Notes: generated by a model from the sequence alone, not told the origin. A stretch of 18,988 bases of DNA from Nitrospirota bacterium (GCA_013151555.1 JAADIA010000082.1:1-18988), one strand, 5' to 3'. Shown: positions 5,617 to 18,413, numbered from the stretch's first letter. Made by a program: numbers and translations.

Positions 5617-6171
5617 ATGTTGACGGAGACGGAAAGAAAAACCTTATTAAGAATCGCCCGCCGGACGATTGAGGAATATGTCCGGGAGGGAAAGAGACCG
5701 GCGTTTGAGGTGACGGAGCCTGCCTTGAGAGAGAAAAGGGGTGTGTTCGTTACCCTCCATAAGGGCGGAAGGTTGCGGGGATGTATCGGTCGGATAATGC
5801 CCGGGGATGAGCTTTATAAAGCTGTCTCCCTGATGGCTATCGAATCGGCCACTGCCGACCCCCGTTTTTCCCCGGTTAGGGCTGAGGAACTAAACGAAAT
5901 CGAGATAGAAATTTCTGTGCTTACTGTCCCGACAAGGATTAAGGGCATTGATGAGATTGAGTTAGGACGGGATGGAGTTATCATCAAAAGAGGAATGGGG
6001 CAAGGGGTTTTTCTTCCCCAGGTAGCCAGGGAGGTCGGCTGGAGCAAGGAAGAATTTCTCAGTCATCTTGCCCGGGATAAAGCAGGACTGGAAGCTGATG
6101 CCTGGAAAGATAAAGATACCGAGATTTTTACTTTTCAGGCGGAAGTATTCTCGGAACATAAGAAAGCATAA
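5617..6171 (+). CDS. amrA: AMMECR1-domain protein (AmmeMemoRadiSam protein A type)
   Basis: A 184-residue single-domain protein. The hallmark LRGCIG is at 53-58, followed by DPRFSPV (81-87), an EIEISVLT strand (96-103), GVIIKRGMGQGVFLPQV (120-136) and EFLSHLARDKAGL (146-158), all in family order. In many prokaryotes AMMECR1 proteins occur with a Memo-like protein and a radical SAM enzyme, forming the AmmeMemoRadiSam system of unknown chemistry. The other two members are not in this window, so this copy is either an orphan or has its partners elsewhere. The ATG at 5617 has a modest AGGA site about 8 nt upstream. A palindromic repeat begins almost at its stop codon. The family call is firm; the biochemical role is not known. 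Confidence 0.92.
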   Translation: MLTETERKTLLRIARRTIEEYVREGKRPAFEVTEPALREKRGVFVTLHKGGRLRGCIGRIMPGDELYKAVSLMAIESATADPRFSPVRAEELNEIEIEISVLTVPTRIKGIDEIELGRDGVIIKRGMGQGVFLPQVAREVGWSKEEFLSHLARDKAGLEADAWKDKDTEIFTFQAEVFSEHKKA

Positions 6172-7947: not shown

Positions 7948-8748
7948 TCAGGCACTCCTTCTCTTCTTCCGCATAACCATTCCCAGCAAGCCCGAACCTA
8001 AGAGGAGTAAGGTAGCCGGCTCGGGAATCATTAGACCGGGACCGGTGGACAGGTAAGCATAATTACCATCAAACCCCGTTGTATCTACTCCTGGCAGGGA
8101 GCCGTCCGGCAACAGATGGACATTGCCGCCATACGTATCCCATTCCCCTTCCTGGCCGATAAACCCTTCCGGGCCAAGGAGTCCACCGCTGAAATTACCA
8201 TTGGGCACAGGCAATGAGATATTATCTATCAGAACCCCGGAGTCTACAAATCCGTCCCCTGAATCAAGTATCGCAAAGGCAAGCTTCACATTCGTCCCTC
8301 CATATGTTGGAGAGATGGTTATGGAATCTGAAAGAACACCGGTCTCATGGGTGAAGTAAGAACCGTGAGGCCCGGCAGTTCTTGGGAGAGGAGAGAAAGT
8401 AGAGGTGGAGACATCGGCAAGGGAATAGAATTCCACCGGCCCACTATCCTCGACATAGTTGTTAAACAAAGCTATCCCAAAGACATCGTTTGCACCATAT
8501 GTTTCTCCGTTGAACTCACTGGTAAGGAAATTGTAATCAAAGGAGATCGTAGCCCCTTCGGTAGGTATTGTGAACATCCGAGAAATCATCCAGCTTCCCT
8601 CAAAAGTGCTAAGAGGTACAGGCGGTTCGACATCTCCTGGTCCCAAAGGGGGATGAGCCGGGTCGGGAAAAGGCAAAGCCTGGGCTAAACCGACACTTCC
8701 CAGCCCCAGAACCATAACTAAAACCGATTTCATGAATAAGCTTTTCAT
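7948..8748 (-). CDS. PEP-CTERM sorting domain protein, exported
   Basis: A 266-residue exported protein. Residues 1-25 form a signal peptide (KS, then hydrophobic VLVMVLGLGSVGLAQA). The middle is rich in G, S, T and aromatic residues and has a beta-sandwich pattern: ISFDYNFLTSE (68-78), NDVFGIALF (88-95 region), and GDGFVDSGVLIDNISL (164-179), as in bacterial choice-of-anchor surface domains. The C-terminus is a textbook exosortase signal: IPEP (241-244), the hydrophobic LLLLGSGLLGMVM (247-259) and RKKRRSA. Exosortase (EpsH/XrtA type) should remove the tail at the inner membrane, in step with exopolysaccharide export; no exosortase is in the window. AAGGAGG 9 nt upstream supports the ATG. A sigma-54 promoter lies about 60 nt upstream, matching the known link between sigma-54 regulators and PEP-CTERM genes. 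Binding partner or ligand is unknown. Confidence 0.9.
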   Translation of the reverse strand: MKSLFMKSVLVMVLGLGSVGLAQALPFPDPAHPPLGPGDVEPPVPLSTFEGSWMISRMFTIPTEGATISFDYNFLTSEFNGETYGANDVFGIALFNNYVEDSGPVEFYSLADVSTSTFSPLPRTAGPHGSYFTHETGVLSDSITISPTYGGTNVKLAFAILDSGDGFVDSGVLIDNISLPVPNGNFSGGLLGPEGFIGQEGEWDTYGGNVHLLPDGSLPGVDTTGFDGNYAYLSTGPGLMIPEPATLLLLGSGLLGMVMRKKRRSA

Positions 8749-8989: not shown

Positions 8990-9729
8990 CATATGGCTCT
9001 TACCTTCTTCAGGTCGGCAGGAGTATCTACTTCTATACAGTCATATTTAGTTTTTACCATCTTGATCCGATAGCCGTTTTCCAGGACGCGCAGTTGTTCT
9101 AATTTCTCGGCCTTTTCGAGAGGGGTAGGAACCATCCGGGCTAGTTTTAAGAGGAAAGATTTTCGATAGGCATAGGGGCCGATGTGTTTGTAATAGTTTA
9201 AGGTTGAAAGTTTAAAGTTTAAAGTTTTATCTCTGAGGTAAGGGATGGGCAGACGGGAGAAGTAAAGGGCGAACTCTTTTTTGTCCAGGATCACTTTCAC
9301 AATGTTGGGGTTGGATAACTCTCCCTCGTCCTTTATCCGGCAACAGAGAGCGGCCATCTTGACTTCCGGATGGGCTAAGAACGGTTTGACCAATCGGTCG
9401 ATCATTCCCGGTGGGAGAAGGGGGGCATCTCCCTGGATGTTGACCACTACTCCGTCTCCGGGTATCTTTAACCGGGAAGCGGCCTCGGCTACGCGGTCGG
9501 TTCCCGAGCGGTGCCGGGAAGAAGTAACTCTGACTTCTCCCCCAAATCTCTTCACTTCCCGGAGAATCCTTTCGTCGTCTGTAGCCACGACAACTCTCTC
9601 TAAAACTTTAGATTTCTTTGCCTGCCGGTAGACTCTCTCGACCATTGTCCGGCCACCAATATCGGCCAGGGGCTTTCCCGGGAAGCGCTGGGAAGCATAT
9701 CTGGCCGGAATGATTCCAATTATTCTCAT
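8983..9729 (-). CDS. kdsB: 3-deoxy-manno-octulosonate cytidylyltransferase (CMP-KDO synthetase)
   Basis: Activates KDO with CTP to CMP-KDO for the inner core of lipopolysaccharide, so the organism should have an LPS-type outer membrane. Family motifs (numbered from an ATG at 9735): GIIPARYASQRFPGKPL (7-23), the ATDD turn (51-54), SGTDR (77-81), NIQGDAPL (99-106), ALYFSRLPIPY (156-166), HIGPYAYR (184-191), EKLEQLRVLENG (210-221) and the closing VDTPADL (236-242). Length is normal. The ATG at 9729 is preferred because GGAG lies 8 nt upstream. The ATG at 9735 is only 2 nt from that site and would add two residues. A repeat-derived segment encodes TLNFKLSTLN (171-180) in a loop that is naturally variable in the family. 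No other LPS gene is adjacent. Confidence 0.95.
   Translation of the reverse strand: MRIIGIIPARYASQRFPGKPLADIGGRTMVERVYRQAKKSKVLERVVVATDDERILREVKRFGGEVRVTSSRHRSGTDRVAEAASRLKIPGDGVVVNIQGDAPLLPPGMIDRLVKPFLAHPEVKMAALCCRIKDEGELSNPNIVKVILDKKEFALYFSRLPIPYLRDKTLNFKLSTLNYYKHIGPYAYRKSFLLKLARMVPTPLEKAEKLEQLRVLENGYRIKMVKTKYDCIEVDTPADLKKVRAICV
9196..9226. repeat. Short dispersed repeat inside kdsB
   Basis: A stretch built of GTTTAAA/GTTGAAA units. Positions 9203-9225 match 11717-11739 inside trxB at 21 of 23 bases on the same DNA strand. In kdsB it is read antisense and encodes most of TLNFKLSTLN. Confidence 0.55.
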
Positions 9730-9765
9730 CTTCATTTCTCCAAATTTCTCCAGGAACCTATTAAG

Positions 9766-9795
9766 ATTCTATCATTGTCTATTCCTTCCCTGCAA
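9766..9795 (-). promoter_or_regulatory. Promoter for kdsB with extended -10
   Basis: On the minus strand, TTGCAG (9795-9790) is followed after 18 nt by TAGAAT (9771-9766), which is preceded by TGA, an extended -10 element. The -35 is weak. Transcription would begin near 9759, some 25-30 nt before the start codon. Confidence 0.45.
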
Positions 9796-9845
9796 GAAAA
9801 AAACCAGGGTGCGGTCTTTGCCGATAAAATAAAGATTAATAAAAC

Positions 9846-10038
9846 TTTTACCACGGAGACACGGAGAACACAGAGAAAAACTTTAAAAAGTTTAAAATAA
9901 ATTATCCGGTACATCCTGTTAATCCTGTCAAAAAAAAGATTTTACCTAATTACTATCTGGGTAAATCTGGTGAAATCTTGTGGTTTATATCTTGTCCTCA
10001 AGGTCTTCTCTGTGACTTTGCGACTCTGTGGTAAATCT
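9846..10038. repeat. Palindromic intergenic repeat, copy B
   Basis: The left end (ttttaccacggagacacg, from 9846) and the right end (gactctgtggtaaat, to about 10036) are imperfect inverted repeats of about 30 bp. Between them are acatcctgttaatcctgtc (9911-9929) and aaatcttgtggtttatat (about 9973-9990). It contains no credible gene. With copy C it fills most of the 650 bp gap between kdsB and the deacetylase gene. Confidence 0.75.
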
Positions 10039-10077
10039 TTTTTGTAGGTCTCTGCAGGGAGAATGAAGATTAAAAAC

Positions 10078-10268
10078 ATTCACCACAGAGACACGGAGAA
10101 CACAGAGAAAAAGTTTAAAGATTTTAAAATTATCCGGTACATCCTGTCAATCCTGTCAAAAAAAAGGATCTTACCTAATTACTGTCTGGGTAAATCTGGG
10201 TAAATCTTGTGGTTTATATCTTGTCCTCAAGGTCTTCTCTGTGAACTTTGGGTCTTTGTAGTGAATCC
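10078..10268. repeat. Palindromic intergenic repeat, copy C (tandem to B)
   Basis: Nearly the same as copy B in the same orientation, about 230 bp downstream. The left end attcaccacagagacacg (from 10078) mirrors the right end tctttgtagtgaatcc (to 10268). The cores share attatccggtacatcctgt, then ttacctaattact, then aaatcttgtggtttatatc, then tgtcctcaaggtcttctctgtg. It ends just before the promoter of the next gene. Confidence 0.75.
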
Positions 10269-10289
10269 TTTTGTGGTTACGGGGTTTTC

Positions 10290-10318
10290 TTGTTTTTTCC
10301 TCGAATTTATGATAAAAT
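10290..10318 (+). promoter_or_regulatory. Extended -10 promoter for the deacetylase-trxB operon
   Basis: TTGTTT (10290-10295), a 17 nt spacer and TAAAAT (10313-10318) with TGA directly before it, giving an extended -10. The start should fall near 10325, about 60 nt before the ATG at 10386. It lies immediately after repeat copy C. Confidence 0.5.
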
Positions 10319-10385
10319 TTGCGATAAGACGTCATCAAAGTATTATTGCCTTTGGTTCGGCAGAGGCAGGCATGTAGGAGGAAAA

Positions 10386-11480
10386 ATGGTTAGGAGAAGA
10401 AGACATTCGAGAAGAAAGGCAAGAGTTTCTCCTCAAGGGGCACTCATTGGGTTGGTTTTCTTTCTGATAATCAGCTTCTTTTTTCTCGATTTCCTCTATA
10501 AATGGAAGGAAGGGGCCGGGAGAAGCATAAAGCAAGTAAAGCAAATAGAGAAAATAAAGAAAATAGAGCAAGTAGAGAAGATAGAGCAATTAGGACAACA
10601 GATAGAGCAAGCGGGAGAGAGTGTAAAGAAGGAGAAAGAGCCGTTAGAATCAAAGGTAGGTAAAGAGGTAAAAGAGATAGGGATAAAGGTAACAGAAGGA
10701 ATCCGGACAGAAGCAGAACCTTCAGAAACAGGAGGAACAGAAGAACTTCTTCCTAAACTTAAGGAAGAGAAGCCGGAGGAGGCAAAAGAGGAAAAACCGA
10801 TTACCCTTCCTCCTCCCCGGGTAGCTCTCATAATCGATGACTTAGGTTACAGCCTGAGGGCAGCCAAGCCCTTACTCGATATTAAGTATCCCCTAACCTT
10901 GTCTATACTGCCCGGACTTCGCTATTCAGTGTCTTTAGCAAAAAGAATGAGTCAACCTCCTTTTGAAGCCACTTTACATCTTCCCTTGGAGCCGGAGGGA
11001 AAAGGACATTTGGAACGGGGAACGATTATGGTGGACATGAGCGAGGAGAAAGTGAGAGATTTGATGGAGAAACACCTGAGTCTTCTTCTTCCCTATATCA
11101 AAGGAGTTAACGGCCATATGGGGTCGAAGGCTACCGCAGATAAGAGAATAATGAGCATTGTCCTGGAAGAGGTCAAGAAAAGAGATTTATATTTTGTGGA
11201 TAGTTATACTACCGATAAGTCCGTAGCTCTTGAGGTGGCCAGGGGGTTAGGATTAAAGACTGCCTCCCGCCAGGTATTCCTGGATTCAGGACGGGAGAGG
11301 AACAACCCTGATTATATCCGGGCCCGGATGGAAGAATTAGCCGATATAGCCCGAAAGGAAGGCAAAGCGGTAGGTATTGGCCACCCGAGGCCTCTTACTT
11401 TGAAAATAGTTCAGGAGATGATGCCGAAGTTGGCAAAAGAGGGAATCCTGTTTGTTACTGCTTCGGAGGTGGTAGAATGA
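10386..11480 (+). CDS. Divergent polysaccharide deacetylase (YibQ-type), membrane-anchored
   Basis: A 364-residue envelope protein. Residues 1-17 are very basic, 19-39 form one membrane helix, 46-75 form a glutamine/lysine/isoleucine repeat, and 80-140 are a charged linker. From 145 to the end is a divergent polysaccharide deacetylase domain (Polysacc_deac_2): VALIIDDLG (146-154), LHLPLEP (197-203), GVNGHMGS (240-247), FVDS (270-273) and IGHPRPLT (331-338). These keep the NodB-like aspartates and histidines (D151, D152, H198, H244, D272, H333). The domain should lie in the periplasm and act on cell-wall or surface glycans; the substrate is not known. The ATG at 10386 follows TAGGAGG. The open frame back to 10248 crosses a repeat and the promoter and is rejected. 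Its stop overlaps the trxB start (ATGA). Confidence 0.88.
   Translation: MVRRRRHSRRKARVSPQGALIGLVFFLIISFFFLDFLYKWKEGAGRSIKQVKQIEKIKKIEQVEKIEQLGQQIEQAGESVKKEKEPLESKVGKEVKEIGIKVTEGIRTEAEPSETGGTEELLPKLKEEKPEEAKEEKPITLPPPRVALIIDDLGYSLRAAKPLLDIKYPLTLSILPGLRYSVSLAKRMSQPPFEATLHLPLEPEGKGHLERGTIMVDMSEEKVRDLMEKHLSLLLPYIKGVNGHMGSKATADKRIMSIVLEEVKKRDLYFVDSYTTDKSVALEVARGLGLKTASRQVFLDSGRERNNPDYIRARMEELADIARKEGKAVGIGHPRPLTLKIVQEMMPKLAKEGILFVTASEVVE
10532..10594 (+). repeat. 9-bp tandem repeat coding a three-residue periodic segment
   Basis: Seven consecutive 9 bp units of the type GCAAGTAGA or GAAAATAGA lie within the deacetylase gene. They encode units such as Q-V-K, Q-I-E and K-I-E, so an isoleucine, valine or leucine recurs every third residue (protein residues 48-69). 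The period is not the seven-residue period of a coiled coil. Confidence 0.7.
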
Positions 11481-12415
11481 ATTATGACCTTATTATTATT
11501 GGGGGGGGAGCCGCAGGATTAACAGCCGGCATCTATGCTGGACGGGCCCGAATGAAAACTCTCCTTATGGAAAAGATGGCCCCGGGGGGACAGGCTGCCT
11601 CGACTGATATAATTGAGAATTATCCCGGTTTCCCGGGAGTGATTTCCGGCCCGGAATTGATGGAGAGAATGGCTAAACAGGCGGAGAGGTTCGGACTGGA
11701 AACGGTTATAGATAAAGTTGAAGGTTTAAAGTTAAAAGTCGAAAGGGAAATCGTCGTGATAACTCAAGGGGCGGAGTATAAGACCTTAAGCGTTATCATC
11801 GCTGTTGGAGGGGAACCGCGTTCGTTGGGGGTTCCCGGAGAGGAAGAGTTGCGGGGCCGGGGGGTTTCTTACTGTGCTACCTGCGATGGTCCCCTTTTCC
11901 GGGATAAAGAGATTATTGTCGTTGGGGGTGGTAATACTGCTGTCCAGGAGGCTTTATTCCTGACAGAGTTTGGAAAGAAAGTTACTCTGATTCACCGGAG
12001 AGATAGGTTGCGAGCTACCAAAGTCTTACAAGAACGGGTTCTTTCTCATGCAAAGGTAGATGTAGCTTGGAACTCTGTAGTGACCGGGATTCGGGGAAAA
12101 GAGAGAGTAGAAGGAGTACGAGTGAAGGATGTGCAATCCGGCGAAGAGAGAGAAATTCCCGGCCGGGGAGTGTTTATCTTAACGGGGATTAAACCGAGCA
12201 CGGATTTCCTGCGCGGTTTTCTTGATAGAGATGAGGCCGGTTATATCATTACCGATGAGAATATGAAGACTTCCCGGGAGGGTATCTATGCCTGCGGTGA
12301 CTGCCGCCAGAAACGGGTTCGCCAGATAGTTGTGGCTTGTGGAGAAGGAGCTACTGCAGCTATAGAAGCTCAACATTATATAGATAAAGTAAAAGGGAAT
12401 GTTTATGGAGGCTAA
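11477..12415 (+). CDS. trxB: Thioredoxin reductase (NADPH)
   Basis: A cytoplasmic flavoenzyme passing electrons from NADPH through FAD to thioredoxin. The 312-residue product has the FAD-binding IIGGGAAGLTAGIYAGRA (7-24), APGGQA (35-40), the redox pair CATC (C133 and C136), the NADPH-binding VVGGGNTAVQEA (148-159) with HRRDRLRA (173-180), and the C-terminal YACGDC-RQIVVACGEGATAA (271-295, with intervening residues). The HRR motif favours NADPH. It overlaps the deacetylase stop by 4 nt, so it is translationally coupled. No thioredoxin gene is in the window. Residues 79-90 (DKVEGLKLKVER) are encoded by a copy of the short repeat also found in kdsB. Confidence 0.95.
   Translation: MNYDLIIIGGGAAGLTAGIYAGRARMKTLLMEKMAPGGQAASTDIIENYPGFPGVISGPELMERMAKQAERFGLETVIDKVEGLKLKVEREIVVITQGAEYKTLSVIIAVGGEPRSLGVPGEEELRGRGVSYCATCDGPLFRDKEIIVVGGGNTAVQEALFLTEFGKKVTLIHRRDRLRATKVLQERVLSHAKVDVAWNSVVTGIRGKERVEGVRVKDVQSGEEREIPGRGVFILTGIKPSTDFLRGFLDRDEAGYIITDENMKTSREGIYACGDCRQKRVRQIVVACGEGATAAIEAQHYIDKVKGNVYGG
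11717..11739. repeat. Short dispersed repeat inside trxB
   Basis: Matches 9203-9225 in kdsB at 21 of 23 bases on the same DNA strand. Here it is read in sense and encodes KVEGLKLK in a surface region between FAD-domain motifs. Confidence 0.55.
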
Positions 12416-12503
12416 AGTTACCTTAGAGTTCAAGGAAGAAACAGCGGTCGTAGCGAAGGAGACTGAAGAGAATCCAGAGGAGAAAACTGAGAGCACAGAG
12501 TAA
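12405..12503 (+). CDS. Possible small acidic protein overlapping the trxB end
   Basis: An ATG inside the last codons of trxB opens a 32-residue frame ending at TAA 12501-12503. It starts MEAKVTLEFKEE and is rich in glutamate, lysine and threonine, with no cysteine, aromatic core or membrane segment. The 11 nt overlap would allow coupled translation, but the only ribosome-site candidate (AAAGGG) is weak. It resembles no family known to me and may not be expressed. Confidence 0.25.
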   Translation: MEAKVTLEFKEETAVVAKETEENPEEKTESTE

Positions 12504-12538
12504 GAAAGAAAAAACCATATAGGACGCACCCTCCTGAG

Positions 12539-12666
12539 GCGGACAGGGATTTTCACGAGATTTTTATTTAATTTTATCTTGTGTTAATCTTGTGTAATCT
12601 CGTGGTTTCTTCTTTTATTATTGTTTTTCTGACTTTGTGCCTCTGTGTCTTCTGTGGTGAGAAAGT
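12539..12666. repeat. Palindromic intergenic repeat, copy D (partial)
   Basis: Contains ACGAGATT (about 12555-12562) paired with AATCTCGT (about 12596-12603), then aatcttgtgtaatctcgtgg and the typical right end gactttgtgcctctgtgtc, then tctgtggtga. The left end with the acacggag motif is missing, so this is a truncated copy of the A-C family. It ends about 25 bp before the deformylase start. Confidence 0.65.
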
Positions 12667-12691
12667 TTTCTTGACCCAAGGGAAATAAGGA

Positions 12692-13204
12692 ATGGCGATG
12701 AGAGAGATAAAGATTTATGGAGACCCTATCCTGAGGGAGAAGACTTGCCTGGTGAGGGAAATAACCCCTCGGACGAAAGAGTTAATTAAGGATATGGCTG
12801 AGACTATGTATGGAAGCAAAGGAGTTGGATTAGCTGCTAACCAGATAGGAGTTGATGCGCAGATAATGACTGTAGATGTGGGCAGGGGGCTGTTAGTTCT
12901 GGTCAATCCCCGGGTTCTAAGCAGTTTCGGGGAAGAATCGGCTGAGGAAGGTTGTCTAAGCCTGCCGGATATCAGAGTGGGGGTGAGGAGGGCTGCGAAG
13001 GTAAAAGTCGAGGGATTAAACGAAGAGGGAAAAGAGGTCGAAATCGAAGCCGAGGGGCTTCTGGCCAGAGCTATCCAGCATGAGATAGATCACCTGAATG
13101 GAATTCTGATAACTGACCGGATAAGTTTGGCCCGCCGGCATTTGCTAAGCTCGCATTTGAAGAAGTTGGAGGGAAGCAGCAAAAGTTTGCCGGAAAGGCG
13201 TTAA
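12692..13204 (+). CDS. def: Peptide deformylase
   Basis: Removes the formyl group from N-terminal methionine of new proteins. The 170-residue product has all three active-site motifs: GVGLAANQIG (44-53), EGCLSLP (86-92) with the metal-ligand cysteine 88, and QHEIDHLNG (129-137) with H130, E131 and H134. Length is normal. Two starts are possible: ATG 12692 has a weak AAGGGA 8 nt upstream, while ATG 12698 (MREIKIYGDP) has AAGGA 6 nt upstream and would remove two residues. The second is at least as likely. The gene follows a palindromic repeat and precedes tatA by 24 nt. No formyltransferase gene is adjacent, unlike the common def-fmt order. Confidence 0.95.
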   Translation: MAMREIKIYGDPILREKTCLVREITPRTKELIKDMAETMYGSKGVGLAANQIGVDAQIMTVDVGRGLLVLVNPRVLSSFGEESAEEGCLSLPDIRVGVRRAAKVKVEGLNEEGKEVEIEAEGLLARAIQHEIDHLNGILITDRISLARRHLLSSHLKKLEGSSKSLPERR

Positions 13205-13228
13205 ATTTTAGAGGAAGGGGGTGGGGAT

Positions 13229-13420
13229 ATGCTCGGGGGAATCGGGATGCCGGAATTAATTGTTGTTCTTATTATCCTACTGGTTCTTTTTGGGGCTGCT
13301 AAGTTGCCTGAGATAGGGAAATCTTTAGGGAAGGCAATAAAGGAGTTCAAGAAAGCGGGCAAAGAGATTAAAAACGATATCGAGGAGGTAACTAAGGAGG
13401 ATGACAAGGAGAAGAAATAA
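13229..13420 (+). CDS. tatA: Sec-independent protein translocase subunit TatA/E
   Basis: A 63-residue subunit of the twin-arginine translocase, which exports folded proteins. It has a short N-terminus, one membrane helix (about 8-21, [14 protein letters not shown]), the [10 protein letters not shown] hinge (21-30), an amphipathic helix ([18 protein letters not shown], 31-48) and a charged tail. The ATG at 13229 has a strong purine-rich site (GGAAGGGGG). Two of the next genes encode Tat-signal proteins, so placement close to its own cargo is suggestive. TatC and TatB are not in the window and must be supplied from elsewhere. The call of TatA rather than TatB rests on its short length. Confidence 0.93.
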
Positions 13421-13422
13421 AG

Positions 13423-13614
13423 ATGAGCGGCGATATGAAGATTGCTCCCCATCAAACACTTAGAGGAATTTCGGAGAAGGCTCAGCGTTTGTTTAGTCTC
13501 TATCTTCGTCTTTGCTCTCCTATCTTATATTCTCAAGCCGAGAAGATCCTTGTCCTTATCTTCATTCCCGCTGCCGTTATGACTTCTCCGATACATTCAC
13601 TTAAATATTTTTAG
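13423..13614 (+). CDS. Possible small protein after tatA, not recognised
   Basis: A 63-residue open frame beginning 2 nt after the tatA stop. It starts MSGDMKIAPHQTL and ends with a hydrophobic stretch (ILVLIFIPAAVMTSP, about 42-56). GGAG lies 11 nt before its ATG, at the edge of useful spacing. It matches no family known to me and is not a TatC fragment: none of the TatC motifs is visible. It could be a small membrane protein or simply an open frame in the 259 bp gap before the DUF362 gene. Confidence 0.25.
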   Translation: MSGDMKIAPHQTLRGISEKAQRLFSLYLRLCSPILYSQAEKILVLIFIPAAVMTSPIHSLKYF

Positions 13615-13679
13615 CTATTTCCGTTCTTCTCCTTTATAGGATAAGTCGAACCACTGTATCGTCTATGGGAGGAAAGAAA

Positions 13680-14621
13680 ATGGAAAATAAAATTACCCGC
13701 CGGACATTTTTAAAGATTCTGGGAGGGGGAGCAGTTTCTCTCTCCGGGCTTTCTTTTTTGACCTCAAGAGGGAGTGCTGCGCCCGGGAATAAAAGGGAGG
13801 AAGGACGAGTTTCCCATGAAAGCCATATCGTAGTTGCAGAGGGAAGAGACCCTTATGCTATGACCATGGCTGCCCTGGCGGGATTAGGGGGAATGGGGCA
13901 GTTTGTCAGAAGGGGAGATATCGTTGTGGTCAAACCCAATATGGCTTTTAATAGGGTGCCGGAACAGGCTGCCAATACCAATCCCGAAGTGGTAAGAGCA
14001 GTAGTTCGGTCCTGTTTAGAGGCCGGAGCCAAGGTAGTGAAAGTCTTTGACAAAACCGTCAATGTCTCCAGAATGACCTATGATAGAAGCGGTATCGCCC
14101 CGGCGGCCAGAGAAGCCGGAGCCCGGGTGAGTTTCATCGACGAGAGAAAATTTAAAGAGAAACAGATCGCTCAGGGTAAATTTATTAAGTCCTGGCCTAT
14201 ATATAAAGAGGCTCTGGAAGCAGATGTCTTCATCAATGTTCCCATTGCCAAGCAGCATAGCCTGGCTCGTCTCACCCTGGGAATGAAAAATATTATGGGG
14301 GTCTTGGGAGGCAATAGAGGAAGACTTCACCAGAATATTGACCAGAACTTAGCCGACCTGAATACCGTTATTCCCATCCATCTAACGGTGATGGATGCTT
14401 ACCGTATCCTTACGGCTAACGGTCCTACCGGAGGGAGGCTGGAAGATGTGAAGTTTACCGGTCAGGTTATCGCCGGAACGGACCGGGTGTCCGTGGATGC
14501 TTACAGCACCGGACTCTTTGGTCTGAAACCGGAAGATATCGGCTATATAAGAATTGCTTACGAGAAGGGTTTAGGGGAAATTGACTTAGCTAAAGTAAGA
14601 GTGGAGACGGTGAGAGTATAG
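13680..14621 (+). CDS. DUF362 domain protein with Tat signal peptide
   Basis: A 313-residue exported protein. The N-terminus MENKITRRTFLKILGGGAVSLSG is a classic Tat signal, with arginines 7 and 8, the FLK motif and a cleavage region near SAAP (32-35). The mature part matches DUF362: DIVVVKPNMAFNR (80-92), TNPEVVRAVVRSCLEAGAKVVKV (100-122), ADVFINVPIAKQH (181-193), LTLGMKNIMGVLG (198-210) and DRVSVDAYSTGLFG (268-281). The fold is of unknown chemistry; related proteins often sit beside ferredoxin genes, and Tat export suggests it folds with a cofactor first. It lacks cysteine clusters of its own. The ATG at 13680 is chosen because GGGAGG lies 7 nt upstream; the ATG at 13665 would place that site inside the gene. 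It is first of a four-gene redox set. Confidence 0.88.
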   Translation: MENKITRRTFLKILGGGAVSLSGLSFLTSRGSAAPGNKREEGRVSHESHIVVAEGRDPYAMTMAALAGLGGMGQFVRRGDIVVVKPNMAFNRVPEQAANTNPEVVRAVVRSCLEAGAKVVKVFDKTVNVSRMTYDRSGIAPAAREAGARVSFIDERKFKEKQIAQGKFIKSWPIYKEALEADVFINVPIAKQHSLARLTLGMKNIMGVLGGNRGRLHQNIDQNLADLNTVIPIHLTVMDAYRILTANGPTGGRLEDVKFTGQVIAGTDRVSVDAYSTGLFGLKPEDIGYIRIAYEKGLGEIDLAKVRVETVRV

Positions 14622-14668
14622 TAAGTCTTAATCAGTAAAGGCGGAAATAAAGGGAGGGGGGAGAGAAT

Positions 14669-15910
14669 ATGAAGAACAAGAGTGCGCCGGAAGGAAATTC
14701 TGTCGTCAATAGACAGATGGACAGAAGGGAATTTCTCGGGGAAACATCCAAAGGAATTTTGACAGCTACCTTCGTATTAAGTTCTCTTGACCCTTTAAGC
14801 CTGGCGGGAAAGTGGCTGGCGAAAGAGACCGGTGAGAAGGAATCTCCGAGAGTTCAGGGAAGGAAAAGAAATTCCGGCCCGGTCGAATATCGACGTCTGG
14901 GAAAAACCGGGCTAATGGTCGCCACGATAGGTTTTGGAGCTATGCGCACCCGTAATCCGGCTGTTATCCACCGGGCTCTTGACTTGGGGATAAATTATAT
15001 TGATACGGCTCACTGTTATCAGGGAGGCAATAATGAAAAGCTGGTTGGACAGGTTATTGAGAACCGCCGCCAGGATGCTTTCATAGCCACTAAGGTACAT
15101 GTTAAGAATCGAAAGGAGATGATTCTTTCCGTAGAATCCAGCCTGAGAAGTCTCAGGACGGATTATATTGACATTATTCAGCTACACAACTTGAGGAAAC
15201 CTGAGCAGGTTACCAGCCAGGAGGCTATGGCGGCCCTGGAGCAATTAAGGAAAGATGGCAAGGTCCGGTTTCTGGGAGTCACCACCCATGAAAATGAGGC
15301 GACGGTGTTAAAATCTGCGGCCGGGACGGGATTTTACGATATGGTTCTGCTTAAGTATAATTTTCGGAGTTCCCCGGCCGTTAAGGAAGCTATTGAAATA
15401 GCTGAAAAAGCCGGCTTGGGTATTGTGGCCATGAAGACTCAGGCGGGAGGATATAGGAGCAAGGAGATGGGGAACCTCAGTCCTCACCAGGCTGCTCTGA
15501 AATGGGTGCTGGGGAATAAGAATGTGGCTACCACTATTCCCAGCATGGTAACTTTTGCTCAGGTGGAAGAGAATTTCCAGGTAATGGGAACAAGGATGAG
15601 CTGGAATGACCGGAAGACCCTGAGCAGATATGCCCGGGCTACCGATAAAGTTTACTGTCGCTTGTGCGGGGAATGCCGGGATACTTGTCCTGACATGGTG
15701 TCTATCCCGGAAGTGATGAGGTCCTTAATGTATGCAGAGGGGTATGGAGATTTCCCGCTGGGACGGTCTCAGTATGTTTCTTTAGCTCCGGACCGGAGTG
15801 CCGCTAAGTGTCTTCAGTGCAAGAGATGTAAGGCCAAGTGCGTAAACGGTCTGAATATAGCGGCCAAAATGGTTCGGGCTCATCACCTTCTCACCCGGGG
15901 TTATAGTTAA
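14669..15910 (+). CDS. Tat-exported aldo/keto reductase with C-terminal dicluster ferredoxin domain
   Basis: A 413-residue fusion. Residues 17-40 carry a Tat signal (MDRREFLGETSKGILTATFVL, arginines 19-20). Residues about 74-310 are an aldo/keto reductase barrel with the usual catalytic set D112, Y117, K142 and H173 (IDTAHCY, ATKVH, IQLHN). Residues 330-340 (CRLCGECRDTC) and 381-391 (CLQCKRCKAKC) give eight cysteines for two 4Fe-4S clusters. Such reductases normally use NAD(P)H, which is absent outside the cytoplasm. The attached clusters suggest electrons come from, or go to, the membrane polyferredoxin two genes downstream. Alternatively, it exports with tightly bound nucleotide, as Zymomonas glucose-fructose oxidoreductase does. 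GGAGGGG upstream supports the ATG. Its stop overlaps the next start by one base. Substrate unknown. Confidence 0.9.
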   Translation: MKNKSAPEGNSVVNRQMDRREFLGETSKGILTATFVLSSLDPLSLAGKWLAKETGEKESPRVQGRKRNSGPVEYRRLGKTGLMVATIGFGAMRTRNPAVIHRALDLGINYIDTAHCYQGGNNEKLVGQVIENRRQDAFIATKVHVKNRKEMILSVESSLRSLRTDYIDIIQLHNLRKPEQVTSQEAMAALEQLRKDGKVRFLGVTTHENEATVLKSAAGTGFYDMVLLKYNFRSSPAVKEAIEIAEKAGLGIVAMKTQAGGYRSKEMGNLSPHQAALKWVLGNKNVATTIPSMVTFAQVEENFQVMGTRMSWNDRKTLSRYARATDKVYCRLCGECRDTCPDMVSIPEVMRSLMYAEGYGDFPLGRSQYVSLAPDRSAAKCLQCKRCKAKCVNGLNIAAKMVRAHHLLTRGYS

Positions 15911-16842
15911 TGAAAAGAAGGCTGGCCTTTATTATAACTATACTTGTGGTGGGATTGTGGGGATGTGCCGACCGTTACTTCCCTCTTAGCAGGGAAAAGT
16001 CCGAGCTGGAAAATTTATTGCCGCCCTCCTCCTTTTCCCCCGGCTGGAGGAGAGAGAAGAAGCCTTCCTCTTATAACCCCGGGAACCTCTACGAGTATAT
16101 TGACGGAGCGGCAGAGTTGTATCTGGACTATGGGTTCAAAAAGTTGGTTACGGCTCTTTACCTCTATGAGGGTAAAAAGGACTATTCTCTTATTATTGAT
16201 GTCTATGATATGGGTTCTGAGTTAAATGCTTTTGGCATTCACTCTTCTTACCGGGGTTCGGAGGCGCAACTTTTGGAAATAGGTTCTGAGGCCTATCTTA
16301 CGGATTATACCCTTGCCTTCTATAAGGGAAAATATTTTGTCTACCTGCAGGCCGGCAACCCTTCAGGGGAAAACAAGACATCTATGAAAAAAGCAGCTCA
16401 AATAGTAGCCGAGAGAATTCCCGGGCAAGCTGAGCAGCCCCGGGAGCTTAGCTACTTACCCGGGGAAAATTTACTGAAAAACACTTCTATCTATGTCCCT
16501 AAAGGGCTTCTTGGCTACCATTTCCTGCCCGGAGGTCTCCAGGCTGAATATCAATTGGGGAAGGAGAAAATCTTATTGTTTGTCGGTCTTTCTCCTTCTT
16601 CCCGGGAAGCGCGGGAAGCTTTTCAGGGATATGTGGAACAGATAAAAAAAGCCGGGAAGAATCTTGCTTTCCAAACCGGTTTAGCAGAAGAAGCCTTTTT
16701 TGCTGACGATTCCTATTATGGTAAGGTTCTGGTAGCCAGACATAAAAGATTCCTCGTGGGGGTGGTTAACCTACAAAATTATAAAGAAGGCGAATCTTTA
16801 CTGAAGGCTACTTTGAAAAAAATAGAAATTAGGGAGGAATAG
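15910..16842 (+). CDS. DUF6599 family lipoprotein
   Basis: A 310-residue protein with a lipoprotein signal: MKRR, a hydrophobic stretch and the lipobox GLWGC with the lipid-modified cysteine at 19, so it is anchored to a membrane from the periplasmic side. The mature part has the DUF6599 pattern YEYIDGAAELYLDYGFKKL and later a VYDMGSELNAFGIHSSYRG segment. The function of the family is unknown; members often sit beside DUF362 and ferredoxin genes. It carries only the lipobox cysteine, so it probably does not bind a metal cluster. Translation is coupled to the upstream reductase (TAATG overlap), and the polyferredoxin starts 5 nt downstream. That tight packing argues it belongs to the same redox system, perhaps as a structural or substrate-binding part. 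Confidence 0.85.
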   Translation: MKRRLAFIITILVVGLWGCADRYFPLSREKSELENLLPPSSFSPGWRREKKPSSYNPGNLYEYIDGAAELYLDYGFKKLVTALYLYEGKKDYSLIIDVYDMGSELNAFGIHSSYRGSEAQLLEIGSEAYLTDYTLAFYKGKYFVYLQAGNPSGENKTSMKKAAQIVAERIPGQAEQPRELSYLPGENLLKNTSIYVPKGLLGYHFLPGGLQAEYQLGKEKILLFVGLSPSSREAREAFQGYVEQIKKAGKNLAFQTGLAEEAFFADDSYYGKVLVARHKRFLVGVVNLQNYKEGESLLKATLKKIEIREE

Positions 16843-16847
16843 AGGGT

Positions 16848-18413
16848 TTGAAACTAAATAACACTTATCCTGTTTTAAGAACTATCCGCCGAATAGTCCA
16901 AATAGGAGTTCTCTTTTTCTTCTTCTTCCTTTTGGTGAAGACTGCTTATCCCCTGCAGTTAAAAAAATGGGTGGATTTTTTCCCCCGGTTAAGCCCTACG
17001 GGGGTGTTCTTAACCATTATTTCCTCCCGGATGGCTATTTCGGGCATTCTCCCGGCGATCCTTCTCTTGGTTCTTACTCTCTTATTAGGACGTTTTTTCT
17101 GTGGGTGGCTCTGTCCGCTGGGAACGACTATTGACTTTTCCGATACTCTTCTGCGAAAAAATCGTCGCGAGAGGAAAGAATCTCAGCTTAACCTCCGGGC
17201 TCTCAAATATTACTTTCTTCTCTTTCTTTTCATAACTGCCCTTTTTGGTCTCCAGACGATTGGTTGGGTGGACCCTTTGAGCTTAGTTACCCGAAGCTAC
17301 GCTCTCCTTATCTATCCTTATCTAAATTTTCTGGGAGCCGGTCTTTTCAATCTTCTCTACCAGGTTCCCGGGGTAAATGCTCTTTCAGAACCTCTCTACT
17401 CCTTCTTGAAAACATATTTCTTTACCCCTTTTCAGTACCTTTATCAGGGACATCCTTTTTTCCTGCTTGTCTTGGTCTCTATCCTCATCATGGGATTATT
17501 TTCCCGAAGATGGTGGTGCCGGAATCTCTGCCCCTTAGGTGCGCTTTTAGCCCTTGTTTCTCGTTGTTCCTTTCTGAAGAGATTAGTAAAAAGCGAATGC
17601 CTTGACTGTGATGCTTGTCTTAAAGCTTGTAAGATGGGAGCCATAGGTGAGGATGGAAAGAAGGTTTGGAGGGGAGAGTGTATTGAGTGTTTGAACTGTG
17701 CCGGGCAATGTCCCCAGGCTGAAGTAAGTTTTCAGTTTTTTCCTCCGAAGAGAAATTACCGGTCGGCACCTCTCGATCTATCCCGGCGCGGTTTTCTCCT
17801 GGGAACTCTCTCTGCCGTAGCTGCCTTTCCTCTCTTTTCTCTGAACTATCCTCGCCGGAAGAAATATCCTTATCTTGTTCGTCCTCCCGGGTCTATTCCC
17901 GAGGAGAATTTTACCGGCAAGTGCATAAGGTGCGGGTTATGTATGGCTGTCTGTCCTACCAATGGATTGCATCCCGGCCTCTGGCAGGCGGGAGGGGATA
18001 GCTTATGGACTCCTATCCTCGTTTCCCGGGTGGGGTACTGTGAATATAGTTGTAACCTGTGTACTCAGGTCTGTCCTACGGATGCTATTCGGGAGATTAG
18101 CCTGGAGAGGAAAAAGAAATGGGTTATCGGGACGGCCTACATTGATGAGAACCGCTGTATTCCCTACTCCCGGGATAAGAATTGCCTCGTCTGTGAGGAG
18201 GTTTGTCCTATTCCCACCAAGGCCATAAAATTCCGGAAAGATAAAGCTAAAAATACTCCGGGAAAGAAGCTTCTCTATCCCTATGTCTTGGAAGAGAGAT
18301 GTATTGGTTGCGGCATCTGTGAAAATAAATGTCCGGTAGAAGGAAAGGCTGCTATTATTGTAACTGTGCCCCAACTTTCTCCGCCGGGTTATGCCGACCG
18401 GATCCCTGTTTGA
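16848..18413 (+). CDS. Membrane polyferredoxin, NapH-NapG-like fusion
   Basis: A 521-residue protein. The N-terminal half is NapH/CcoG-like: about five membrane helices (for example 17-30, 66-80, 121-138, 203-218), FCGWLCPLGT (84-93) and WWCRNLCPLGALL (222-234), then two 4Fe-4S motifs (C251/254/257/261 and C278/281/284/288). At 312-331 is an internal twin-arginine-like segment (LSRRGFLLGTLSAVAAFPLF). The second half is NapG-like with four more cysteine quartets: 359-369, 398-409, 437-453 and 485-495. That gives six predicted clusters. In NapGH, such proteins move electrons from quinol to periplasmic enzymes; here the target is likely the exported reductase upstream. TTG start: GGAGG lies 10 nt upstream (AGAGGG is closer), and there is no better in-frame ATG. 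Cofactor count is from motifs; direction of electron flow is unknown. Confidence 0.9.
   Translation: MKLNNTYPVLRTIRRIVQIGVLFFFFFLLVKTAYPLQLKKWVDFFPRLSPTGVFLTIISSRMAISGILPAILLLVLTLLLGRFFCGWLCPLGTTIDFSDTLLRKNRRERKESQLNLRALKYYFLLFLFITALFGLQTIGWVDPLSLVTRSYALLIYPYLNFLGAGLFNLLYQVPGVNALSEPLYSFLKTYFFTPFQYLYQGHPFFLLVLVSILIMGLFSRRWWCRNLCPLGALLALVSRCSFLKRLVKSECLDCDACLKACKMGAIGEDGKKVWRGECIECLNCAGQCPQAEVSFQFFPPKRNYRSAPLDLSRRGFLLGTLSAVAAFPLFSLNYPRRKKYPYLVRPPGSIPEENFTGKCIRCGLCMAVCPTNGLHPGLWQAGGDSLWTPILVSRVGYCEYSCNLCTQVCPTDAIREISLERKKKWVIGTAYIDENRCIPYSRDKNCLVCEEVCPIPTKAIKFRKDKAKNTPGKKLLYPYVLEERCIGCGICENKCPVEGKAAIIVTVPQLSPPGYADRIPV

Follow-up and report, generated by a model that had tools for sequence, protein, structure and literature searches.

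A Tat-signal DUF362 protein with a LarA-like fold, paired with a dual Sec-Tat polyferredoxin: a candidate nickel-cofactor redox module in a Nitrospirota bacterium

Gene content of the locus

The window, a stretch of 18,988 nucleotides from a Nitrospirota bacterium (GCA_013151555.1, JAADIA010000082.1:1-18988), carries four consecutive genes on its plus strand. They encode a DUF362 protein (13680..14621, PF04015, 313 aa), a Tat-signal aldo/keto reductase, hereafter AKR (14669..15910, PF00248 and Fer4_17, 413 aa), a DUF6599 lipoprotein (15910..16842, PF20244, 310 aa) and a NapH-NapG fusion polyferredoxin read from a TTG start (16848..18413, NapH and NapG NCBIfam matches, 521 aa). All four ORFs of the families named in the first-pass annotation were recovered at these positions, as was the tight packing it had described for the last three: the DUF362 and AKR genes are 47 bp apart, the AKR and DUF6599 genes overlap by 1 bp, and a gap of 5 bp precedes the polyferredoxin gene. 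For DUF362, the start at 13680 was preferred over a longer one at 13665 because a GGGAGG motif sits just 5′ of 13680.

A tatA-like gene on the same strand (13229..13420, 63 aa, PF02416 at 71.4 bits), encoding a Tat translocase subunit, lies directly 5′ of the set, in which three genes (DUF362, AKR and polyferredoxin) carry a Tat motif. Adjacency of tatA to the polyferredoxin was considered as a conserved trait and rejected, being found in one of 84 loci, that of this window. Promoter and terminator scans of the window gave signals at or below the level of shuffled sequence, and no periplasmic nitrate reductase gene was present among its Pfam-scanned genes. Further upstream, a gene for an AMMECR1/AmmeMemoRadiSam protein A (5617-6171) lies on the same strand as the set, about 7.5 kb 5′ of it, and a minus-strand gene (7948-8748) encodes a protein with a C-terminal PEP-CTERM sorting motif.

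The DUF362 protein matches PF04015 at 172.7 bits, against a gathering score of 24, and displays an N-terminal Tat signal (ITRRTFLK) with no TM segment. It contains a single cysteine, and no cysteine position is conserved among its relatives; the exported DUF362 protein is thus expected to hold no Fe-S cluster, and its assignment as an Fe-S protein was rejected.

Analysis of the polyferredoxin revealed multiple Fer4 and Fer4_5 domains in Pfam, with the NapH and NapG models of NCBIfam matching its two halves. The membrane half comprises about four TM segments and two CxxxCP motifs (CGWLCP at 85 and CRNLCP at 224), and two cytoplasmic-type [4Fe-4S] motifs are located at 251-288. An internal Tat motif, SRRGFLLG, is found in mid-protein at about residue 312 (RR at 313), and C-terminal of it lie four [4Fe-4S] motifs within 359-495 (359, 398-409, 437-453 and 485). 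Four TM regions were called ahead of the internal Tat motif; the segment beside it was not called by hydropathy at a threshold of 1.6. These features agree with the NapH-NapG-like identity proposed in the first-pass annotation and, judged from sequence, the protein is a member of the published dual Sec-Tat polyferredoxin family (PMC5449189). For a homologous polyferredoxin of this family, PFD (MLMS-1, Q1NSB0), Tooke et al. (2017, PMC5449189) reported Sec and then Tat insertion on the basis of reporter fusions.

The AKR matches PF00248 at 134 bits, carries the Tat signal DRREFLGE and ends in the ferredoxin-like Fer4_17 domain, where eight cysteines at 330-391 make up two [4Fe-4S] motifs; cluster motifs are fewer in its relatives from loci L152 and L153, described below. 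The catalytic tetrad of D112, Y117, K142 and H173 is invariant in 19 aligned relatives. In an alignment with solved AKRs, the SN pair is replaced by TTH, the tyrosine of the YSPL motif by Met255, and the K/R positions of IPK...R by S/Q; we take these to be positions that usually hold NAD(P)H. The DUF6599 protein matches PF20244 at 144.2 bits, against a gathering score of 27, and has a hydrophobic N-terminus with a lipobox-like LWGC sequence (C19). Its structural model was poor (pLDDT 63) and gave no PDB match at E < 0.001.

Recurrence of the gene set across phyla

A scan of public genomes for the polyferredoxin returned 374 relatives, and the best 80 of these 374 loci, distributed over more than ten phyla, were examined. 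DUF362 is the next gene 5′ of the polyferredoxin in 72 of the 76 loci with enough upstream sequence, a count that takes in two loci with a small doubtful ORF between the two genes. Among the remaining scorable loci, DUF362 lies downstream in L020 and is not adjacent in L030, L032 and L076. Many of the gene pairs overlap by 1, 4 or 20 bases. The conserved core is therefore the DUF362 and polyferredoxin pair. No AKR was reported in the neighbourhoods of these best 80 of 374 loci, and since AKR and polyferredoxin are adjacent in three loci only, the idea that they are constant partners was rejected.

DUF6599 was surveyed in 40 neighbourhoods, which were chosen partly by best score and are not a random sample. 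It adjoins an AKR in 19 of the 40 loci and a DUF362 gene in about 11 (some of them distant DUF362 relatives). AKR and DUF6599 are a second, separable pair. DUF6599 accompanied by a polyferredoxin, or the order DUF362-polyferredoxin-DUF6599, was observed in L020, L066, L074, L077, L078 and L156. Poribacteria and Neomarinimicrobiota both have DUF6599 together with the polyferredoxin, in a short form in four Neomarinimicrobiota loci.

All four families lie contiguously in L152, which belongs to a single-contig genome, and in L153, in the order DUF6599-DUF362-polyferredoxin-AKR, with unrelated flanks and in phyla other than that of the host. The order in the window, DUF362-AKR-DUF6599-polyferredoxin, is unlike that of these two loci, and a set that stays together although its order has changed is better explained by function than by inheritance of the order. 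Since the four families come together again in these loci of other phyla, they probably constitute one functional set. The first-pass annotation had proposed a single extracytoplasmic set and had named, as grounds for refuting it, homologues that seldom occur together in other genomes. These grounds apply only in part: in the sampled loci the four families are rarely found all together, but linked pairs are frequent. The DUF362-polyferredoxin core mostly occurs without AKR or DUF6599.

Two side observations concern the distribution of these families. Pairs of a Tat-signal AKR and DUF6599 are common in the phylum of one sampled genome, G053 (for example L127-L138 and L162-L165), mostly without a nearby polyferredoxin, and DUF6599 is carried by 54 of the 82 genomes of that phylum. 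In addition, four Neomarinimicrobiota loci (L066:7949-9067, L074:2083-4743, L077:8124-10783 and L078:2441-5223) contain AmmeMemoRadiSam genes: downstream of the succession DUF362-polyferredoxin-short DUF6599 comes an AmmeMemoRadiSam radical SAM protein with a Tat signal (TIGR04337 at 381 bits in L066), and L074, L077 and L078 encode an apparently exported AMMECR1-domain protein that looks like a Memo-AMMECR1 fusion. These radical SAM and AMMECR1 genes apparently represent an exported version of the AmmeMemoRadiSam system.

LarA-like fold of DUF362 and lar genes in its host

A model of the DUF362 protein was obtained by AF2 with 41 relatives (pLDDT 90.7). In a Foldseek search against the PDB, all 19 matches at E < 0.001 belonged to the LarA family, with E values of 2e-7 to 4e-5. 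Comparison by VIA with LarA entries gave Z scores of 19.1 to 15.8 over about 200 residues; the best match (Z 19.1) covered 206 residues at 2.6 Å, against Z 5.8 for the best unrelated chain. The superposed region spans residues 54-283 of the DUF362 model and residues 33 to about 268 of the 425 of LarA, and VIA matched no counterpart of the LarA C-terminal region. A sequence search of the PDB with DUF362 gave only insignificant methionine synthase matches. According to PMC11770544, in which DUF362 serves solely as an outgroup, DUF362 and DUF2088 (LarA) are grouped in one Pfam clan, CL0471.

In LarA, the nickel-pincer nucleotide (NPN) is borne by a lysine residue, and a histidine supplies the remaining nickel ligand (PMC12611868). 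Profile alignment with hhalign placed DUF362 H193 on LarA His174 and K203 on Lys184, the site of NPN attachment, with a spacing of 10 in both proteins. H217 falls one to two positions off LarA His200, the nickel ligand, lying 14 residues from K203 compared with 16 in LarA, an offset due to a DUF362 loop that is 2 residues shorter. The end points of the VIA alignment (54 to 33 and 283 to 268) bracket the same residue offsets. The profile alignment is weak (E 0.09, or 0.003 with a deeper alignment) and some unrelated controls outscored LarA over short segments, probably the Tat signal or ferredoxin, and the residue mapping therefore leans on the structure match and the spacing.

Conservation was determined from 85 DUF362 sequences, among them paralogues and a cytoplasmic form with a fused ferredoxin. 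Every one of the 85 has K203, N204 and N87, H193 and H217 are each conserved in 84 of 85 sequences, and K85 is also among the invariant or nearly invariant residues. LarA possesses two catalytic histidines, His108 and His174, of which DUF362 keeps the His174 equivalent H193 only; no conserved histidine N-terminal of H193 was found in 42 DUF362 sequences. Because His108 and a match to the C-terminal region are missing, DUF362 is not a LarA, although it may work like one. The first-pass annotation had regarded DUF362 as a cofactor or scaffold part and the AKR as the catalyst. Neither assignment fits well with a protein that resembles the enzyme LarA in fold and in key residues and that is the partner of the polyferredoxin across phyla, usually without an AKR.

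The host genome, which is about 94% complete, encodes LarC and an adjoining LarB, both over the NCBIfam cut-offs, LarE above its cut-off, and two DUF362 proteins. As for LarA itself, no Lar_N (PF09861) match was detectable in this genome of about 94% completeness, the DUF362 proteins included. The second DUF362 protein (L175, on contig C73, 949-2142) has a C-terminal ferredoxin domain. Positions 9499-17129 of the same contig carry genes for a UbiA-family protein, a four-CxxCH cytochrome-like protein and redox proteins resembling heterodisulfide-reductase/hydrogenase subunits; the UbiA-family prenyltransferase was read as MenA-like.

Co-occurrence was analyzed in a sample of 241 genomes, with LarC in 125, DUF362 in 128 and LarA in 106. 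The odds ratio between LarC and DUF362 was 9.5 (p 1e-15), and it was 8.9 (p 9e-8) in the LarA-free genomes, both p values ignoring shared ancestry and anaerobic lifestyle; other LarA thresholds left the association unaltered. LarC was present in 76% of the DUF362 genomes and in 75% of the LarA genomes (absent from 31/128 and 26/106, respectively), so that DUF362 goes with the NPN pathway no less closely than the proven NPN enzyme does. In 17 LarC genomes both LarA and DUF362 are missing, which leaves room for further NPN-using proteins. LarC and LarE occur in all four of the genomes in which polyferredoxin and DUF362 were seen here (G000, G020, G031 and G050). At L202:7180-9026, a LarC1 gene and a DUF362-ferredoxin gene share 4 bases, which ties NPN synthesis to DUF362 directly at the gene level.

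Copy numbers vary in the sample, some of the 241 genomes carrying 12 or more DUF362 copies. In genome G053 (97% complete), three Lar_N matches and six DUF362 proteins were found, but LarC gave no match and LarE none above cut-off; this genome has LarA homologues and lacks the known NPN pathway.

Of surveyed genomes, about 15% are NPN producers that lack LarA, and the protein using NPN in them has been described as unidentified (PMC11796402). By its fold, its key residues and its genome distribution, DUF362 is a candidate NPN user and may be a missing nickel-cofactor protein, a testable proposal since an expression system for an NPN test has been published.

Proposed mechanism, alternatives and known systems

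The reading we favor, to which we give a probability of roughly 0.4, is that the four genes specify one redox module in which DUF362 is a LarA-type NPN domain wired to the polyferredoxin and the quinone pool. The polyferredoxin would be inserted by Sec and Tat. By analogy with its family, its NapH half would take electrons from the quinone pool or give them to it, and electrons would run through the four periplasmic [4Fe-4S] clusters. DUF362 would act as a LarA-type catalytic domain in which K203 bears NPN or a closely related cofactor, H217 binds the metal and H193 serves as acid/base. It would be loaded by the cytoplasmic LarB, LarC and LarE proteins, folded, and then exported by Tat, and cytoplasmic loading of this kind would give a protein devoid of clusters a reason to use Tat. 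An exchange of electrons between DUF362 and the polyferredoxin is suggested by their near-obligate pairing and by the DUF362-ferredoxin fusions found elsewhere. With LarA-type hydride chemistry joined to Fe-S clusters, a hidden-redox racemisation could become a quinone-coupled reaction in which a hydroxy/oxo compound undergoes net oxidation or net reduction. The AKR, likewise Tat-exported and equipped with clusters, and the lipoprotein DUF6599 would be accessory components dealing with a particular substrate; as a first guess, drawn from LarA and AKR chemistry, this could be a 2-hydroxy/2-oxo acid or a sugar-like carbonyl.

A fold match indicates ancestry and not cofactor, and DUF362 might use its LarA fold for another ligand, such as a nucleotide, a metal or a quinone-like cofactor, and serve without NPN as a small electron-transfer or assembly partner of the polyferredoxin. 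His108 and the LarA C-terminal region are unmatched in DUF362, LarC is missing from about a quarter of DUF362 genomes, and polyferredoxin genes almost always have DUF362 as a neighbour whatever other genes are close by, as for a structural or assembly partner. We consider this explanation somewhat less likely than the favored one, since the position of the NPN lysine and the metal-ligand histidine are among the least variable in the 85 DUF362 sequences and the association of LarC with DUF362 persists in genomes that lack LarA.

The same loci bear on two further explanations. If the AKR were the catalyst and the polyferredoxin its electron carrier, with DUF362 and DUF6599 as cofactor or scaffold parts, the invariant D112/Y117/K142/H173 tetrad, the [4Fe-4S] motifs of the AKR and the reunion of the four families in L152 and L153 would be accounted for. 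This is nevertheless unlikely, as the AKR stands beside the polyferredoxin in three loci only and is absent from the other polyferredoxin loci, while the conserved partner is DUF362, which has an enzyme fold. Chance proximity of two independent modules, DUF362 with polyferredoxin and AKR with DUF6599, sharing only the need for Tat, would be consistent with the 19 of 40 DUF6599 loci in which AKR and DUF6599 adjoin with no polyferredoxin in view, with the occurrence of DUF362 and polyferredoxin without AKR or DUF6599 in most of the best 80 of 374 loci, and with tatA adjoining the set here. We regard such a coincidence as rather improbable, given that L152 and L153 reunite the four families in a different order between unrelated flanks and that Poribacteria and Neomarinimicrobiota also bring DUF6599 and the polyferredoxin together.

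Extending the favored reading, a LarA-type NPN domain in DUF362, to the whole family can be proposed only tentatively. DUF362 would then be a major "missing" NPN family, in which one branch, exported by Tat and linked to the polyferredoxin, and another, cytoplasmic and fused to ferredoxin, carry out net quinone- or ferredoxin-coupled redox reactions by LarA-type nickel-pincer chemistry, and it would account for many NPN-making genomes without LarA. A DUF family of very wide distribution would thereby gain its first chemistry, and the use of NPN would reach beyond racemisation into extracytoplasmic redox metabolism. Should the cofactor be another one, DUF362 and the polyferredoxin still make up a widespread redox unit, of which no functional description was found in the literature searched. 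The polyferredoxin family and the clan link between DUF362 and LarA are already known. In the literature searched, part of it accessible as excerpts, we found no report of a DUF362 function, of an NPN role for it or of this module, and prior mention elsewhere is possible; DUF6599 was not mentioned in the literature searched.

Compared with canonical NAD(P)H-dependent AKRs (e.g. 1ynp and 6kik), the AKR of the window shares the TIM-barrel family and the catalytic tetrad, and differs by its Tat signal, its ferredoxin-like tail and, as the alignment suggests, the loss of several usual dinucleotide-binding positions. The polyferredoxin resembles PFD in its fused NapH-NapG organization, its approximately four TM segments, its internal twin-arginine motif before a weak fifth TM segment and its four [4Fe-4S] motifs. 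Tat export of the C-terminal half was demonstrated with reporters in the MLMS-1 homologue and would apply here by shared architecture. Biogenesis is the topic of the PFD paper, whose accessible text assigns no partner or reaction and does not mention DUF362 (PMC5449189). The two halves also match the NapH and NapG models of the NapGH quinol dehydrogenase of nitrate respiration; unlike NapGH, they form one fused protein, with no nap reductase genes in the window and with DUF362 as the partner.

With LarA, the lactate/malate racemase (PDB 9eid, 6d6z and 5huq), DUF362 shares the N-terminal domain fold (Z 19), equivalents of Lys184 and His174, a near-equivalent of His200, clan CL0471 and a host genome that contains larB, larC and larE. 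It differs from LarA by the absence of His108 and of a C-terminal region match, by falling below Lar_N detection in the host, by its Tat signal and by the linkage of its gene to that of a polyferredoxin. The ferredoxin-fused cytoplasmic DUF362 proteins (Npun_F2552-like) have the same domain, the same invariant residues and a comparable wiring to [4Fe-4S] clusters; in those proteins, which bear no export signal, the clusters are present in cis, whereas in the module described here the polyferredoxin would give them in trans.
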